Assembly (NCBI GenBank): GCA_944323135.1
Contig: CALURI010000008.1
Span: 1 to 64,000 of the forward strand
Direction: 5' to 3'
Source: Candidatus Gastranaerophilales bacterium
Lineage (GTDB): Bacteria > Cyanobacteriota > Vampirovibrionia > Gastranaerophilales > Gastranaerophilaceae
Length of the DNA: 64,000 bases
This document shows positions 31,642 through 38,247 of the stretch, piece by piece; within the stretch, counting starts at the first letter, position 1, and each line of letters begins with the position of its first letter. The translations under genes and the position numbers were made by a program. The notes under the pieces were generated by a model. That model searched no databases and was not told the origin of the DNA. It saw nothing but the letters and a program-made list of their open reading frames with translations.

Positions 31642-32151
31642 ATGAAAAAAATAATTTTAATATTGTGTATAATCTTTCAACTTGTTATACCTGTATATGC
31701 AGAATATAAACCTATACCGGAAAGTTTAAGTGAGCAATATAAAACTGAAATTGAACAAATTATTGATGAAGAATATCCGCAAGTTATAAAAAAAATTGAC
31801 GATGAAGTTAATTATGCAAAATCCTTGCGAGATAAAATTCTTAAAAATGGTTTTAATTTTGAGGATTATATAGCTTTATCACTTATCCCAGACACTTGCA
31901 TTCCAGCAGCAGATTTAGATTTGTATGGAATAATGTTAAAACTTACCAGAGAAAAATATTTGGGTATAGAATATACTCCCATAGGCACAGATAGCGTAAA
32001 TCCTATTGATGCTATTCTAACCCCATATTTTAAGGATAATAATGTCAATAGAAAAAAACTGAAAAAGATTGTACTTTATGAGAATAAAAAAATTAAGGTA
32101 GTAGAAAAATATATTAAAGAAGTTGAGAAATTGCGTTCTACTAATAATTAA
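31642..32151 (+). CDS. Secreted protein of unknown function
   Basis: A 169-residue protein with a Sec signal peptide (MKKIILILCIIFQLVIPVYA, cleavage before EYKPI). The mature 149 residues are helical and charged (SLSEQYKTEIEQIIDEEYPQVIKKIDDEVNYAKSLRDKI), with one Cys (PDTCIPAADLD) and a Lys-rich C-terminus (NVNRKKLKKIVLYENKKIKVVEKYIKEVEKL). No family was recognised. AGGTAAG lies before the ATG. The last 11 nt overlap the end of the convergent MuF-M23 gene. It is the first gene after ssrA in a block I regard as accessory. Confidence 0.65.
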   Translation: MKKIILILCIIFQLVIPVYAEYKPIPESLSEQYKTEIEQIIDEEYPQVIKKIDDEVNYAKSLRDKILKNGFNFEDYIALSLIPDTCIPAADLDLYGIMLKLTREKYLGIEYTPIGTDSVNPIDAILTPYFKDNNVNRKKLKKIVLYENKKIKVVEKYIKEVEKLRSTNN

Positions 32152-33127
32152 AATATTTATTAGGATTCACAGGAATCCCTTTATAAGCTCCTTCTCTTAT
32201 TGTGATATGCAGATGTGGACCTTGCGAATGTCCAGTATTTCCAGATTTTGCAATAATTTGTCCTTGCTTAATTGATTGACCAGCCTGTACATTCCAAGAT
32301 GATAAATGACCATATTCACTTGTTACTATTTTTCCATTTTGTGTATGTGTAATAATAACATATTTGCCATAACCATTAGGATCATTAGCTCCAGCATAGT
32401 AAACTTTTCCATCCGCAACAGCTTTTATTGGCGTTCCGATAGGTACTGCAATATCAATTCCATTATGAACGTGTGTGCTTCTTGGTTCTCCATAATGTCC
32501 AACAATAGGTCCGTTACAAGGCTTTATCCATTTTTGAGGTTGAGTTTGCTGAGGTACTTTAAGAACAGGATTTGGATGTGGAGTTTTAGATGTTGATTGC
32601 GGTGCAGAAGTTCGAGGATTTTGGCTTTCAGATGGTACTTTAGTTATATTATCATTTTCTATTGTATAAGTTTCAGAATTATCATTTGAATTTGTTTCTT
32701 CGATAATTTCAACAGTACATTTGCAATTTGGATGAGGTCTTTGAGGGACTTCGTCATAAAAATCGAATTCTTGCCCATCCAAGGATTTGCATATATCACA
32801 AGTATCTTCACTATTTTCAAAGTGCCAAACATATTTGTTATAACTAATACCACCTTTTAGTACAACAGTTTCTACATTTTCTTTTTCTTCTTCCGCATCC
32901 TGACTATAATCATTTTCTGATAATTTATTAAAACAATATATTGATTTTTCAATATTTTTTAAAGTATTAAATTTTTTAAGAATTTTATTTTTATCTTTTT
33001 GTTTAATGGCTGGATTAGAGTAATTTTTTAATAAATTTTCTTGAGATATAGATAAGTCATCTAATACCATATCTACTTGTTTATTATATTTTAACGCTTG
33101 TAATATTTTTTCTTTTAGATTAGCCAT
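32141..33127 (-). CDS. MuF-like domain fused to M23 (LytM) peptidase
   Basis: A 328-residue protein with two recognisable parts. Residues about 98-142 match the Cys/His end of the phage Mu gpF-like (MuF) head-morphogenesis domain: Trp101, then the CDIC pair (110, 113), LDGQEF, and RPHPNCKCTVE (130-140) with His132, Cys135 and Cys137. A Pro/Gln/Ser-rich linker follows (about 160-198). Residues 200-328 are a LytM peptidoglycan endopeptidase, with His221/Asp225 (HNGID), GHL (273-275) and HLH (305-307) as zinc and catalytic residues. No Sec signal is seen, so it is either phage-derived or exported by another route. The 20-90 region is helical. The ATG at 33127 has only a weak ribosome site. Confidence 0.83.
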   Translation of the reverse strand: MANLKEKILQALKYNKQVDMVLDDLSISQENLLKNYSNPAIKQKDKNKILKKFNTLKNIEKSIYCFNKLSENDYSQDAEEEKENVETVVLKGGISYNKYVWHFENSEDTCDICKSLDGQEFDFYDEVPQRPHPNCKCTVEIIEETNSNDNSETYTIENDNITKVPSESQNPRTSAPQSTSKTPHPNPVLKVPQQTQPQKWIKPCNGPIVGHYGEPRSTHVHNGIDIAVPIGTPIKAVADGKVYYAGANDPNGYGKYVIITHTQNGKIVTSEYGHLSSWNVQAGQSIKQGQIIAKSGNTGHSQGPHLHITIREGAYKGIPVNPNKYFNY

Positions 33128-33554: not shown

Positions 33555-33728
33555 TTAATCTCTTCTTTCGAATTCATCTAATGTAGTTCCATCAGATAAT
33601 TTCCATTCAATTCTACCATTTATTGCTCTGTTTTTAATTATAGCCGCTGCGGCAGAACATGATTCAAGAGGAATATCTTCTTTTGCTTTCCACAAACCAT
33701 TTACATCAGATTTTATAAATAAACTTTC
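33555..33728 (-). pseudogene. Truncated DUF4357-like remnant
   Basis: A 57-codon open stretch on the minus strand that begins straight after a TGA and has no start codon with a ribosome site. It reads ESLFIKSDVNGLWKAKED, then IPLESCSAAAAIIKNRAING and RIEWKLSDGTTLDEFERRD before TAA. The S-AAA-x(6)-NG-x(2)-W-x(4)-DG-x-TL pattern is that of the DUF4357 C-terminal domain found at the end of GIY-YIG and similar proteins. It overlaps the last 23 nt of the kinase-like gene in another frame. A decayed gene or a frame-shifted tail of that protein is possible. Confidence 0.55.
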
Positions 33729-35415
33729 TCATATTTTCATAACCTTTTACAGTTATATTTCTTGGATTTGCAAACTTTAATCCGGTAAAAATATTGTTAA
33801 AAAGTTCTTCTGAGAAATTAATGGTATTTTCTAACAAATTATTTAAAGTTTCATTTGCAATATAAGAAGAAAAATTATGTTTTGCATGATTTCTGAATTC
33901 TCTCACCTTTAATACTGCAACTTCTGAGATATTAAGAGTATCTAAAATTTTACCGTTATAGACCGTATTTTGAGATTTTTTCATAATATTTTGTATTTTT
34001 TTTATTTTGTGAATTGACTTAGAATCATTTAAGGTGTTGTCTAATATTTTTATAGGGGTATCATAAAGATCTACAACATTGCTTAACAATAATCTGGATG
34101 AATTAAAATTTGTTTCATATAAGGGTCTGTATTTAAATCCTAAATTTTCCAATAAATCTAAATTTGGTGTAAAAATTCTTGGGTTTCTGTCATTGATATA
34201 AAATTTATGAACGTTTTCTTCTTCATTAGGCATTTTGGCTGCCATTCTTATTATGTAATCATAAGTATCTTGAGTATAATTTGTCAAATTCTTATACCAA
34301 TAATTACCATAATCTAACATTGATTTCAGATAATCTGATTTTGTTTTGTTAAAACTTGAATCTAATTGTCTTACAGCTTCTTTTCTAAAATCTTGAACAG
34401 AACTTATTGAACAAAGATATGATGACGGAGACGCTAAAATATTACGATCAGGGAGGTTTGGGTCAACGTGAGAATATGCATCACGATAATCAGAAAGAAA
34501 TTGTAATTTTTTCATTTCTAATTTTAAAATATTATCGTCAACTTTTTTATAAACTTCTGCTTTAGATTTTTCTGATTCAAGAGAACGATTTATATATACT
34601 TTTTCTGATGAATATGGCCAATTTTTAGTAATTTTTTTAATATATTCATATCTCATCTTATGATAATTTGATTTTGCATCAAGGTATGACCTCATGAATT
34701 GTTCTTTCTCGGCTAAATTATCGAAACTTTCCAGATATCGAGGCATTGATGCCATTTCAAACATTTGCGCATTTTCCGGGAATTCTGATAACGGTAATAA
34801 TATTTTTTGACTTTTTTGATTATCAAAAAAATTTATTTTATTTATTTTTTCAGTCCATTGGTAGTCTATAAAATTTACGATACCGTTTTCTCCGATAAGA
34901 ATATTTTTTCCGTTTAAATCTCCATGGTATATGCCCAATTTGTCTAATTCAAACATTTTATTAAAAAGAGAATTTAAATGTTCTTTTGTATACCGATTAT
35001 GTTTTGAAACACACTTACCTGGGACAAATGTTGATATCAAATAATGTTGACCTGAATTTTCAACTCTTGCAACAGGTTCTTGACCTCCAACTATATTCGT
35101 AGGGATTAATGACAAATTTTCGTATTCTTTTAAATAGTCATCATTATAACCAATTTTATTCTTTTTTATAACAATGTCAGAAAGCTTCGGATGATTAAAT
35201 CGGTATGTTTCACCTCCAATACCTTCACCTAACTTTATAACATTTAAACCATTATTAATAAATTCATCAACTTCATTTCGCAACAAAGTTTTTATCGAAT
35301 TATATTTGCTGTTAAAATCTTCAAAATCTGAACTTCCGAAACTAACCTGTTTTTTCTGAGAGAAATTATTCTTTTTATTATACTTTTGATAACTTAATAT
35401 TGGTACTATTTCCAC
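33706..35415 (-). CDS. Protein-kinase-like protein
   Basis: A 569-residue protein with a bacterial kinase-like fold at residues about 58-200. It has a G-loop (LGEGIGGETYRF, 62-73), a Lys pair IVIKK (81-85), a Glu-rich helix (DYLKEYENLS), the catalytic loop IYHGDLNGKN (162-171, HxD with Asn171) and a metal Asp in NFIDYQW (Asp184). All major motifs appear intact. The remaining 370 residues are helical and unrecognised. Near the start is VSFGSS (24-29), related to the F-x-G motif of other proteins here. The GTG start at 35415 has AAGGA 7 nt upstream. It overlaps the HAD phosphatase gene by 38 nt. Substrate (protein, sugar or lipid) unknown. Confidence 0.78.
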   Translation of the reverse strand: MEIVPILSYQKYNKKNNFSQKKQVSFGSSDFEDFNSKYNSIKTLLRNEVDEFINNGLNVIKLGEGIGGETYRFNHPKLSDIVIKKNKIGYNDDYLKEYENLSLIPTNIVGGQEPVARVENSGQHYLISTFVPGKCVSKHNRYTKEHLNSLFNKMFELDKLGIYHGDLNGKNILIGENGIVNFIDYQWTEKINKINFFDNQKSQKILLPLSEFPENAQMFEMASMPRYLESFDNLAEKEQFMRSYLDAKSNYHKMRYEYIKKITKNWPYSSEKVYINRSLESEKSKAEVYKKVDDNILKLEMKKLQFLSDYRDAYSHVDPNLPDRNILASPSSYLCSISSVQDFRKEAVRQLDSSFNKTKSDYLKSMLDYGNYWYKNLTNYTQDTYDYIIRMAAKMPNEEENVHKFYINDRNPRIFTPNLDLLENLGFKYRPLYETNFNSSRLLLSNVVDLYDTPIKILDNTLNDSKSIHKIKKIQNIMKKSQNTVYNGKILDTLNISEVAVLKVREFRNHAKHNFSSYIANETLNNLLENTINFSEELFNNIFTGLKFANPRNITVKGYENMRKFIYKI

Positions 35416-36883
35416 TTTTAATTCCTTTTTTATTTTCCAAAAAACGATATCCGGTATAACCTAATAAACCCGCCAATATAACAAGAGTCAGAGTTTTAAA
35501 ATATTGAAAATTTTTTGCAGATTTTTTTTTTGCTCCAAAAATTAATGTTTTTAAATTTTCAGACATTGAATTTTTAAATATTTTATTTTTTTCTGCATGA
35601 ATTTTTATAACTTTTTTAATCCCATCATCCAAACAAGCAAAATCTGCAACAACTATTTTATTTATATGAGAAAATGCATCAATTAGCAACTGTAATTTTG
35701 TATTTTTATTTTTCATTACAATTCCGTATATTGGTAAATCTTCAATTTTCTTAAGATAACCGTTTTTATTTAATTCTTTTCTCAATCCATTTATATATTG
35801 ACTATTTTCACCGCTATATACTTTATGTAAATCTTTAAGCCTTTCTTTCATATCTTTTCTGTAAAAATCTTTATATAATGAGTTTTGTTCACAGGTTTTT
35901 ATAAAATCTTCATCTAAATATTCTAACGGATTTAACATTTCAAAATCGTTTGAACCATCGCCTGCGGCAATTACAATATCATTATTTTTTATAGCTTGTT
36001 TCAATGATTTTTTTGTATCATACAATTTTGTTAACGGACCGTCTTCTATTTTAGGAGTGATTGAACAAGATTTTCTATAGTGATTATTCTCATCTGCCGG
36101 TTCCCAAGCTATATGGTACTGTATTTTTTGAGAATCCATATATTTTTTTAAATCATTAATGAAATTATCATATATCCAATTTCTCTCGGGGCAAAAACCA
36201 TAATCCGGAGGGAATATTAAATTAAATTTTAATTTACCGTCGTTACGGGAACCTAAAACATATTCAGCAATTGGAGTTTTATGTTCCTGAATTTTCCCAT
36301 TATCTAAAGGGAGTCTTTTCCATTCATCCGGATTTAATTTCCATTTGCTAAAAAGGGATCTCTTACCGTAGTCAGATACAGAATTTTCAGAATCTGCTTC
36401 TATGAATTTAATATAATATTTATCAGTTAACCGTTTTAATTCCGAATGAATTTTATCACCGTCCCAATTTGTTAATTTTTTAATATCTGCTTCTTTCTCT
36501 TTTTGCGGAACATTATAATCAAATGGGAATTGGTTTCTAATATAAAAATCATTATCATTTCGCAATTTAACAAATCTGTCACTGCCGTCTTTAGTAATTA
36601 CCGTTTCAGGAAACGGTAATTTAAAATCTCGCATTTTTAACAACCAAGAAATTGACTCATATTCTCCTAATGTTCGTCCCGTAGTTATATTAAAATGTAT
36701 ATCTTCCTGTGTGTTTTGGAAAAATTTACTTATTTTATTACAATATTCAGGCATAAAACTGTTAGCATTAGGATTGTGAAGAGAAGAATGAGTTGCAGGA
36801 CAATAAGTACCGTCAAAATCTGAATATAAATCAACTTTTCCTGCAGTAAACACTATTTTATTATTTATACCTGATACTCGCAC
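35378..36883 (-). CDS. HAD-superfamily phosphatase with C-terminal membrane anchor
   Basis: A 501-residue protein. Motif I is DFDGTYCP (22-29; Asp22 nucleophile, Asp24 acid/base), motif II is the Thr/Gly region NITTGRT, and motif IV is GDGSNDFEML (308-317). This Cof/sucrose-phosphatase-like arrangement with a large cap usually hydrolyses sugar phosphates, but protein or lipid substrates are not excluded. The N-terminus carries IVFTAGK (10-16), related to the F-x-G motif elsewhere in the window. A single helix, TLTLVILAGLLGYTGYRFL (464-482), near the C-terminus anchors it, tail-anchored style, with the catalytic domain cytoplasmic. The GTG start at 36883 has AAGGA 9 nt upstream. It is the first gene of a two-gene unit with the kinase-like protein. 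Confidence 0.8.
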   Translation of the reverse strand: MRVSGINNKIVFTAGKVDLYSDFDGTYCPATHSSLHNPNANSFMPEYCNKISKFFQNTQEDIHFNITTGRTLGEYESISWLLKMRDFKLPFPETVITKDGSDRFVKLRNDNDFYIRNQFPFDYNVPQKEKEADIKKLTNWDGDKIHSELKRLTDKYYIKFIEADSENSVSDYGKRSLFSKWKLNPDEWKRLPLDNGKIQEHKTPIAEYVLGSRNDGKLKFNLIFPPDYGFCPERNWIYDNFINDLKKYMDSQKIQYHIAWEPADENNHYRKSCSITPKIEDGPLTKLYDTKKSLKQAIKNNDIVIAAGDGSNDFEMLNPLEYLDEDFIKTCEQNSLYKDFYRKDMKERLKDLHKVYSGENSQYINGLRKELNKNGYLKKIEDLPIYGIVMKNKNTKLQLLIDAFSHINKIVVADFACLDDGIKKVIKIHAEKNKIFKNSMSENLKTLIFGAKKKSAKNFQYFKTLTLVILAGLLGYTGYRFLENKKGIKSGNSTNIKLSKV

Positions 36884-36947
36884 ACTTAAAAATCCTTGAA
36901 AACCTAATTTAACAAATTATAGAAATAATACTAAAGCTTTGTCAAAT

Positions 36948-37373
36948 CTATTTAGCTGGATATGAATAAGATACTGAAGGACGTTTTAATGCCCCGTTAC
37001 CTATTTTATAAGCAGCTCCGTTTCTAACCGTAGTGACATGACCTACATTTGGGGAAGAGATATTCATTCCGCCGCCAAAATTAGGTTTTGGAAGCGGGAA
37101 AGCACTATAAATTATATGTGAGCCACCGCCTCTTTTTTTAGGGACATTTTCTGACAAATAATAACCGTTTTCATCATATTTGCTTTTTTCATAAGGATTA
37201 ACATAAACATATTTTACTTGCGGTTCAGGTTTTTTATATGGATAATAATTAATTCTCGCACCTGTAGCATTATTTTGAGAATTTCCATATTTTAAAACAG
37301 TTCTTGCTTCTGCAGGTAATGATAAAATCACAACCAGAATAAACACAAACAAATATGCTATATTCCTTTTCAT
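36948..37373 (-). CDS. Small secreted Tyr/Pro/Gly-rich protein
   Basis: A 141-residue protein with a Sec signal peptide (MKRNIAYLFVFILVVILSLPAEA, cut before RTVLKYG). The mature part has no long hydrophobic stretch and is rich in Tyr, Pro, Gly, Asn and Lys (YYPYKKPEPQVKYVYVNPYEKSKYD; PKPNFGGGMNISS), so it is probably extended or loosely folded outside the inner membrane. GGAG lies before the ATG. It is alone on the minus strand, between pgeF and the HAD/kinase pair. Function unknown. Confidence 0.65.
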   Translation of the reverse strand: MKRNIAYLFVFILVVILSLPAEARTVLKYGNSQNNATGARINYYPYKKPEPQVKYVYVNPYEKSKYDENGYYLSENVPKKRGGGSHIIYSAFPLPKPNFGGGMNISSPNVGHVTTVRNGAAYKIGNGALKRPSVSYSYPAK

Positions 37374-37506
37374 TTTTACTCCTATAAAAATTTCCCTACA
37401 TATATAAAAACGAAAAAATTATAAATTTGCTATAAAATACTTTATTTTTTGTAAATTTTTGTAAACGTACGAGAGCAAACTTTCATTCTCGAAAAGAATA
37501 AATCTT

Positions 37507-38247
37507 TTATAATTTAATAACTGCACTGTGTCTGTTTGTTGTAGCATTTTCCTTGCGGTAAGAAAAGAACAAACTATTATTACATACTGTACAATAAGGG
37601 CAAACATCAATATTTTCAGATTTCACCCCTGCTTCTGTTAATTGACGTTTATTTATACCCTTTAAATCAACATAAATATTTCCTTGACGTATTTCATAAA
37701 GTCCGGAAAAATCCTTAACCGTTTTAGAAAGCTGCCTATAAACATCTTCTCCAACATTGTAACAACAAAATGATATTGCAGGACCTATTGCGCATTTTAA
37801 ATTTTCCGGGTTTGAATAAAATTCATTTTTCATTTTTTGAACTGTTTTTGTGGCAATCATGCCGGCCGTTCCTCTCCAGCCTGCATGGGATACTGCTGCA
37901 ATATTATTTTCACAGTCATAAATAATTATAGGAGTACAATCAGCGAAATTTAAGAAAACCGCTTGTTCCTTATTGGTTAAAATTAAACCGTCTGTATCAG
38001 GGTATTCTGAAACTCCAACCCTCGCTACATCAACATTTGAAGTATGAGTTTGAGAAGGGTGTATTAAATTTTTTTCATCAATTCCCAAATATTTACAGAT
38101 ATCTTTTTTATTATTGTCAACAATTTTTTCAAAATCAGGTTCTTTTGTTTTAATAACAGTTTCACGCGTTGTAAAAAAGTTGCTGAAACCTGTTAAAACA
38201 GATGTTTTTAATATTTTTTTCCCATTAATCTCTTCAAAATAAAACAT
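37507..38247 (-). CDS. pgeF: Polyphenol oxidase / purine nucleoside phosphorylase (YfiH family)
   Basis: A 246-residue protein of the laccase-domain (YfiH/LACC1) family. Members are named for multicopper oxidase and peptidoglycan editing, and newer work gives them purine nucleoside phosphorylase/adenosine deaminase activity. Zinc-site residues lie in HPSQTHTSNV (His about 72), NFADCTPI (Cys about 103) and SHAGWRGT (His about 120). ENIDVCPYCTVCN and SYRKENATTNRHSAVI complete the C-terminal signature. There is no Shine-Dalgarno site: TGTTATAAA has its -10 box (rc of 38254-38259) 6 nt before the ATG, predicting a leaderless mRNA. It is divergent from the aquaporin gene. Confidence 0.92.
   Translation of the reverse strand: MFYFEEINGKKILKTSVLTGFSNFFTTRETVIKTKEPDFEKIVDNNKKDICKYLGIDEKNLIHPSQTHTSNVDVARVGVSEYPDTDGLILTNKEQAVFLNFADCTPIIIYDCENNIAAVSHAGWRGTAGMIATKTVQKMKNEFYSNPENLKCAIGPAISFCCYNVGEDVYRQLSKTVKDFSGLYEIRQGNIYVDLKGINKRQLTEAGVKSENIDVCPYCTVCNNSLFFSYRKENATTNRHSAVIKL

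Follow-up and report, generated by a model that had tools for sequence, protein, structure and literature searches.

The analysis concerns a window of 64,000 nucleotides (nt), namely the whole stretch of DNA at positions 1 to 64,000 of contig CALURI010000008.1 (Candidatus Gastranaerophilales bacterium, assembly GCA_944323135.1), in which a kinase-like gene and a gene for a haloacid dehalogenase (HAD) phosphatase-like protein overlap on the minus strand. The gene pair is real, conserved and catalytically intact, and a membrane anchor usually belongs to one partner only, the HAD in codirectional pairs and the kinase in 18/18 divergent pairs. The position of this anchor behind a recoding-prone tract of ten adenines (A10), together with the fact that many relatives carry it on the opposite partner, goes beyond what an earlier note on this DNA had described; the sequences give a strong new lead that the membrane tether may be under programmed recoding. 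The features of the locus are given below (aa, amino acids).

33706-35415, minus strand: kinase-like gene, 569 aa, GTG start
35332-35340, minus strand: kinase leader motif F26-G-S, closing the disordered leader
35378-35415, minus strand: overlap of HAD frame and kinase start, 38 nt; the anchored HAD frame covers the kinase start
35378-36883, minus strand: HAD (C2B-cap) phosphatase-like gene, 501 aa in the genomic frame, GTG start, C-terminal membrane helix
35423-35427, minus strand: AAGGA upstream of the kinase GTG, 7-nt spacer
35438-35494, minus strand: HAD C-terminal membrane helix, about residues 464-482, from model, hydropathy and homologues
35522-35531, minus strand: A10 tract (T10 on the plus strand), HAD codons A-K-K-K just upstream of the anchor; proposed slippage site
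36839-36850, minus strand: HAD leader motif F-T-A-G, residues 12-15, directly preceding HAD motif I
36893-36897, minus strand: AAGGA upstream of the HAD GTG, 9-nt spacer

The layout claimed in the earlier note, two intact genes overlapping by 38 nt with a Shine-Dalgarno site each, was borne out by the AAGGA at either start (7 nt from the kinase GTG, 9 nt from that of the HAD). Its interpretation of the two genes as a functional unit gains from the conservation of the pair and from the retained catalytic residues for opposing activities, while action on a single target stays a proposal. Pfam and NCBIfam family models returned sub-threshold matches only, for the kinase and the HAD alike.

The kinase-like protein is composed of a disordered leader (residues 1-26), a kinase domain and a conserved helical C-terminal extension, with no tail anchor. 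Its kinase motifs are intact as first described (LGEGIGG loop, K84, HGDLNGKN with D166 and N171, and D184), E97 is present as well, and in the kinase alignment of 35 rows (the window and 34 loci, L133 excluded) E97, D166, N171 and D184 are invariant in 35/35, position 84 being lysine in 30 and arginine in 5. The 370 C-terminal residues earlier regarded as unexplained can be divided into the kinase C-lobe and a conserved extension, helical throughout, in which P208, N215, F219 and E220 are invariant. Comparison of the AlphaFold model (pLDDT 88.3; residues 1-26 disordered) by VIA placed PKMYT1 best among the matches listed (Z 10.5, root-mean-square deviation (rmsd) 4.2, 217 residues aligned) and the CurKC kinase domain at Z 9.8, a likeness to the fold of Hanks-type Ser/Thr kinases from which the family differs in its long helical C-terminal extension and in the absence of the HRD arginine from 34/35 members. 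The window has HGD and DYQ at the HRD and DFG positions, the arginine being found in 1/35 members and the DxG glycine in 18/35. Ser/Thr protein kinases were the best matches of the family profile (E 2e-14), and Pkinase matched 20/35 members at E<=0.001 (best 3.3e-10) as against 4/35 for APH; the window kinase itself scored below the cut-off with Pfam Pkinase (13.0 bits, gathering cut-off 31.7), APH (13.2 bits, cut-off 23.2) and APH_3p (25.3, cut-off 205). By modelled fold and by profile, the kinase is protein-kinase-like.

The HAD motifs DFDGT and GDGSND named in the earlier note are likewise present, together with TTGR and K286, and across 43 aligned HADs (L123, L133, L137, L143, L146 and L147 being excluded as partial, short or near duplicate) D22, D24, K286, D309 and D313 are invariant and position 68 is threonine or serine in all 43, so that HAD motifs I-IV are complete. 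The AlphaFold model (pLDDT 91; residues 1-11 disordered; helix 457-489) was closest by VIA, among the matches listed, to Synechocystis sucrose-phosphatase (1s2o; Z 17.1, rmsd 4.2, 239 aligned), followed by similar HAD phosphatases. This sucrose-6F-phosphate phosphatase has in common with the window protein the HAD core and a C2B-type cap, and the window HAD is distinguished from it by long inserts, a leader and the C-terminal anchor. Foldseek ranked mannosyl-3-phosphoglycerate phosphatase first, and S6PP matched 10/43 members. Curated cut-offs were not reached (Hydrolase_3, 13.6 vs 20.9; HAD-IIB, 21.2 vs 41.8), and the sequence profile search against solved structures gave no relative at E<=0.01.

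Because the HAD is nearest to sugar phosphatases and the kinase nearest to protein kinases, the target may be a protein, a sugar or a lipid. A metabolic pair, in which one metabolite is acted on by a kinase of small-molecule (sugar) type and by a sugar-phosphate phosphatase with no protein signalling involved, is a possibility that we hold at clearly less than an even chance, and it would be compatible with recoding of the anchor. The sucrose-phosphatase fold and the S6PP matches point to it, as do HGDLNxxN and IDYQ in place of HRD and DFG in the kinase and a neighbour in divergent loci that weakly matches a maltosyltransferase (1gju, E 5.3e-05); the kinase profile and the predominance of Pkinase over APH matches argue against it, and no sugar genes directly adjoin the pair in the window.

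Co-occurrence of the two genes in related genomes, the check proposed in the earlier note, came out in favour of the pair. The relatives were fetched by name and are almost all Gastranaerophilales metagenome-assembled genomes (MAGs), the few other labels appearing to be mis-assigned. Of 241 genomes of the order, 34 gave a kinase match and 36 a HAD match in single-sequence searches. With profiles (E<=1e-8) the numbers were 37 for the HAD and 60 for the kinase, 28 genomes having both; all of the latter except G088, G150 and G199, and thus 25, carry the two genes <=5 kb apart on the same contig. Scanning of the genome contigs with the HAD alone located a kinase homologue at <=7 kb in 35/48 loci, arranged as HAD-then-kinase in 15, divergently in 18, as kinase-then-HAD in 1 and convergently, 2.5 kb apart, in 1. 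In a phylum-wide sample of 292 genomes HAD matches were obtained in 28, every one within Gastranaerophilales.

Among the genomes searched in the window's genus, the kinase was found in the window's genome only, and the pair is missing beside pgeF in the eight same-genus relatives examined; for these reasons the unit is considered accessory in Gastranaerophilales. A synteny boundary lies at window positions 36948-38247, where same-genus relatives mostly retain the pgeF-like gene and what follows it rightward, and the left side is variable. The insertion site is variable, since none of the eight loci has the pair adjoining pgeF, and no mobile element was found in the insertion-site check beside pgeF.

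The C-terminal membrane helix assigned to the HAD in the earlier note is upheld by the AlphaFold helix at residues 457-489, with the reservation that the window's hydropathy peak (1.47) lies under the cut-off of the anchor criterion, a C-terminal helix with hydropathy >=1.6 over 18 residues, while relatives exceed it. Of the 35 paired loci, 9 carry the tail helix on the HAD, and 18 carry it on the kinase, these being the full set of divergent loci; a further 4 have it immediately following the HAD but in a different frame (L106, L112, L114, L115), and for 4 no tail helix was detected on either partner (L117, L138, L140, L141). A hydrophobic stretch some 88 residues from the C-terminal end of the L139 and L142 kinases is read as a buried helix and not as an anchor. 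The divergent loci may represent few lineages, in which case this pattern would amount to few evolutionary events.

With reference to the window HAD, the codons GCA AAA AAA AAA TCT form the A10 tract 27 nt upstream of the membrane helix. Exactly A10 is present at the same place in 12 HAD genes (window, L101, L102, L064, L061, L062, L217, L219-L222 and L128), of which L217 is a near copy of L064 and L128 carries the tract in a different codon phase; variants are A11 in L065, whose anchor is out of frame, and A9 in L148. Ten aligned A10 members are 47-90% identical (median 62%), and the tract is unbroken in 10/10, although the codon is invariant at only 12 of the 138 columns with an invariant amino acid. 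In 398,838 coding nt sampled from the window's genome the only run of >=10 is the HAD tract itself, and 408 non-HAD genes (423,351 nt) held 2 such A tracts. Sites encoding three consecutive lysines in four genomes reach A10 or longer in 2/96 cases, both in HAD genes, and in 0/94 elsewhere. Selection against runs of nine occurs in many bacteria according to the available part of PMC1088944. The HAD tract thus has the properties looked for in a slippage site: a coding-strand run of at least nine adenines, kept in relatives and avoided elsewhere. The predicted shifted products, 464 aa after loss of one A and 462 aa after gain of one, both end just past the folded domain.

Other arrangements at the same junction were observed in relatives. 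In L112, L114 and L115 the HAD frame closes with CCC TAA and the helix carries on in the +1 frame, GGGAGG being located three nt upstream of the CCC in L114 and L115; we liken this junction to the +1 site of bacterial prfB (RF2). A slippery codon before a stop with a conserved +1 frame, as in RF2 or phage PSA, is absent from the window and was seen in these three loci only. Among 65 genomes of their genus the HAD was found in 19 and the +1 arrangement in the same three only, L115 being 87% and 64% identical to its relatives there. The remaining readable HADs of the genus have the helix in frame, except L225, a partial gene whose helix is out of frame at a T-run, which may be an assembly error. 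In L106 the HAD frame is closed by a stop after A7, with the helix in the -1 frame; being limited to a single genome, it is a weak candidate for such a device.

The position of the kinase start corresponds with these arrangements. The anchored HAD frame overlaps the kinase start by 4-50 nt in 10/10 A10 pairs with a placeable kinase start (the count excludes L219, where the start was not placed, L102, with no kinase in the locus, and L148), and the shifted frames of L112, L114 and L115 overlap it by about 20-41 nt. Overlap was found in 0/6 anchored codirectional pairs without a device (L104, L105, L109, L139, L142, L145), the status of L104 being derived from the HAD-kinase gap in the HAD-locus scan. 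As anchored frames with a device overlap the kinase start and those without do not, this layout suggests that reading into the anchor could couple translation of the kinase.

Overall, we propose an accessory unit in which a kinase-fold enzyme and a HAD-IIB-type phosphatase would act together, tethered to the membrane through one partner, which in the window's clade would be the phosphatase, behind A10. The genomic frame would give the anchored HAD of 501 aa, while an mRNA with one A more or one A fewer, or a ribosome that slides on AAA AAA AAA, would give a soluble HAD of 462 or 464 aa. In this manner the A10 run probably lets the cell produce free and tethered phosphatase by programmed recoding. 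Since the anchored frame reaches 38 nt into the kinase gene and the soluble forms terminate well upstream of it, frame choice would probably also set the amount of kinase through translational coupling. On balance we think it probable that the unit is of this kind, comprising two enzymes, a tether on one partner, A10 slippage into soluble and anchored HAD, and an effect of frame choice on kinase amount, where we infer the slippage, the two forms, the coupling, the shared substrate and the opposing action. A wider version, in which one recoding event sets both the location of the phosphatase and the kinase:phosphatase ratio, and in which clades built the site differently (A10 slippage, +1 at CCC TAA, -1 at A7) or placed the anchor on the kinase instead, is offered tentatively, at a little short of an even chance.

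Several observations weigh against this proposal. The fold of the HAD suggests small-molecule substrates rather than proteins. The HAD occurs without the kinase in 9/37 HAD genomes (G006, G023, G042, G046, G074, G095, G131, G164 and G212), and the kinase, diverged paralogues included, without the HAD in 32/60 kinase genomes; L102, in genome G074, has A10 in a genome where no kinase was found. The A10 genes are mutually related and hence not independent. In the divergent clade the kinase anchor is in frame without an A-run of >=9, and anchored HADs lacking any device (L104, L105, L107, L108, L109, L116, L213, L139 and L142) imply that dual forms are not required everywhere. Finally, AAA accounts for 88% of lysine codons, and lysines preceding a membrane helix are common.

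The codon usage just mentioned, and the positive residues beside the helix in relatives without the device, would also be expected if the lysine run merely marks the cytosolic edge of the helix and the phosphatase is always anchored, with no slippage. We consider this unlikely in view of the 94 other three-lysine sites, none of which reaches A10, of the retention of A10 while other synonymous sites are nearly saturated, and of the stop followed by a +1-frame anchor in three relatives. More unlikely still is a contingency (phase-variation) locus, in which DNA replication slippage at A10 would toggle the anchor between cells in place of RNA or ribosome slippage within a cell. It could account for the A11 of L065 (genome G041), a lone case that could itself be an assembly error; the other clade members examined are all exactly A10 and in frame, and a phase-variable tract would be expected to show more variation among assemblies.

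Pairs of a kinase and a phosphatase are already known, as is programmed slippage, but to our knowledge there is no bacterial enzyme whose anchoring depends on a slippery tract with a bearing on how the partner gene is read. A literature search of limited extent found no work linking haloacid dehalogenase with transcriptional slippage, and nothing on this gene pair. The proposed slippage of the HAD can be compared with Thermus thermophilus dnaX, where, as described in the part of PMC1088944 available, standard decoding of an A9 site gives the long form (tau) and slippage the short form (gamma). In both genes a long coding-strand A-run lies near the 3' end; the HAD differs in that its slippage is predicted and its optional part is a membrane anchor whose frame overlaps the next gene. 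Slippage on an A-run selects the soluble or the transmembrane form of the Ebola virus glycoprotein, according to the accessible text of PMC5009743, a parallel of logic only between a viral structural glycoprotein and a bacterial enzyme. The same text describes in Listeria phage PSA a +1 shift on a proline codon before a stop, comparable to L112, L114 and L115, relatives and not the window, which continue in +1 from the codon directly before the stop; a point of difference is that the shift in these relatives would add an anchor and not serve autoregulation.

The pair also resembles KKP, as outlined in the available portion of PMC11341870, in having adjacent kinase and phosphatase genes as one module, and it differs in that the window has one kinase and a HAD, while KKP is there described as prophage-borne, with two Ser/Thr kinases and a PP2C phosphatase and no mention of recoding. 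A phosphorylation-based toxin-antitoxin or anti-phage module of the KKP type, with the kinase as toxin and the phosphatase as antitoxin, is the least probable of the explanations, for although the patchy, accessory spread (HAD in 37/241 and kinase in 60/241 genomes), the HAD-first order of codirectional pairs and the HAD-only genomes of the window's genus, where no other searched genome has the kinase, would suit it, the composition of KKP is different, defence models match the kinase fold only, and weakly, G170 holds a core-type kinase without the HAD, and no mobile-element context was observed. PADLOC gave weak kinase-fold matches for the kinases and one weak unrelated match for the HAD, and PHROGs gave no match for the window pair.

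If true, the recoded tether would constitute a compact switch and offer a first way into the signalling of a gut order that is common but hardly cultured. Frame-shifted members may be taken for broken genes by gene callers and in MAG polishing.

The F-x-G-like motifs that the earlier note saw in both proteins are present in a loose sense: F12 of the HAD F12-T-A-G is found in 43/43 HADs, and F26 of the kinase F26-G-S is aligned with F in 31/35 kinases. Conservation of the HAD F-x-x-G may be structural, as it adjoins the first core strand. The idea of F-x-G as a genome-wide N-terminal tag was rejected. In the window's genome without the pair, [ISVN][SN]F[KTQRNSMG][GAS], a pattern picked after inspecting the data, occurs more often in residues 5-70 (15/25025) than elsewhere (10/102274), and it did not hold up in fresh hold-out stretches of G023, G138 and G091 (5/22295 vs 14/87065, p 0.34; reversed pattern, 7/22295 vs 8/87065).

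Pentapeptide-repeat proteins with an F-x-G-ended leader lie beside the HAD in some relatives (L067:6534-7562, L072:10121-11674, L073:9744-11327). The conserved cluster around divergent pairs (L118-L136, L144) includes a radical SAM/SPASM protein, a methyltransferase, coiled-coil-like proteins with a conserved leader like AIKSNFLSNVSFKG and a protein of 606-649 aa with the weak maltosyltransferase match; none of these adjoins the window pair. PHP-domain phosphoesterase-like proteins with a similar leader were found near the HAD at L144:5563-6849, where such a protein stands in place of the kinase, and at L131:12313-13611.

In both genomes of one genus, a leader-bearing HAD is located directly upstream of flhA (L205:7458-8459 in G150; G148 contig C3:31834-32817). 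FHIPEP (FlhA) is present in 241/241 genomes of the order, so that its presence gives no contrast for testing export of the pair by a type III secretion system; Flagellin_N was found in 74/192 and is missing from G000. The G000 sample (L163:8030-14152, L151:182-2362) contains FlhA, FliH, YscJ/FliF, FliE, FlgE/F/G and FliK-like genes, a flagellar-type export system without flagellin, and a similar loss in MEL.A1 is interpreted as genome reduction in the part of PMC3787301 available. Within the window itself, positions 32141-33127 encode a Peptidase M23 fused to a Phage_Mu_F-like region, of which a second copy with 63% identity is located on the same contig (C8:103336-104310).

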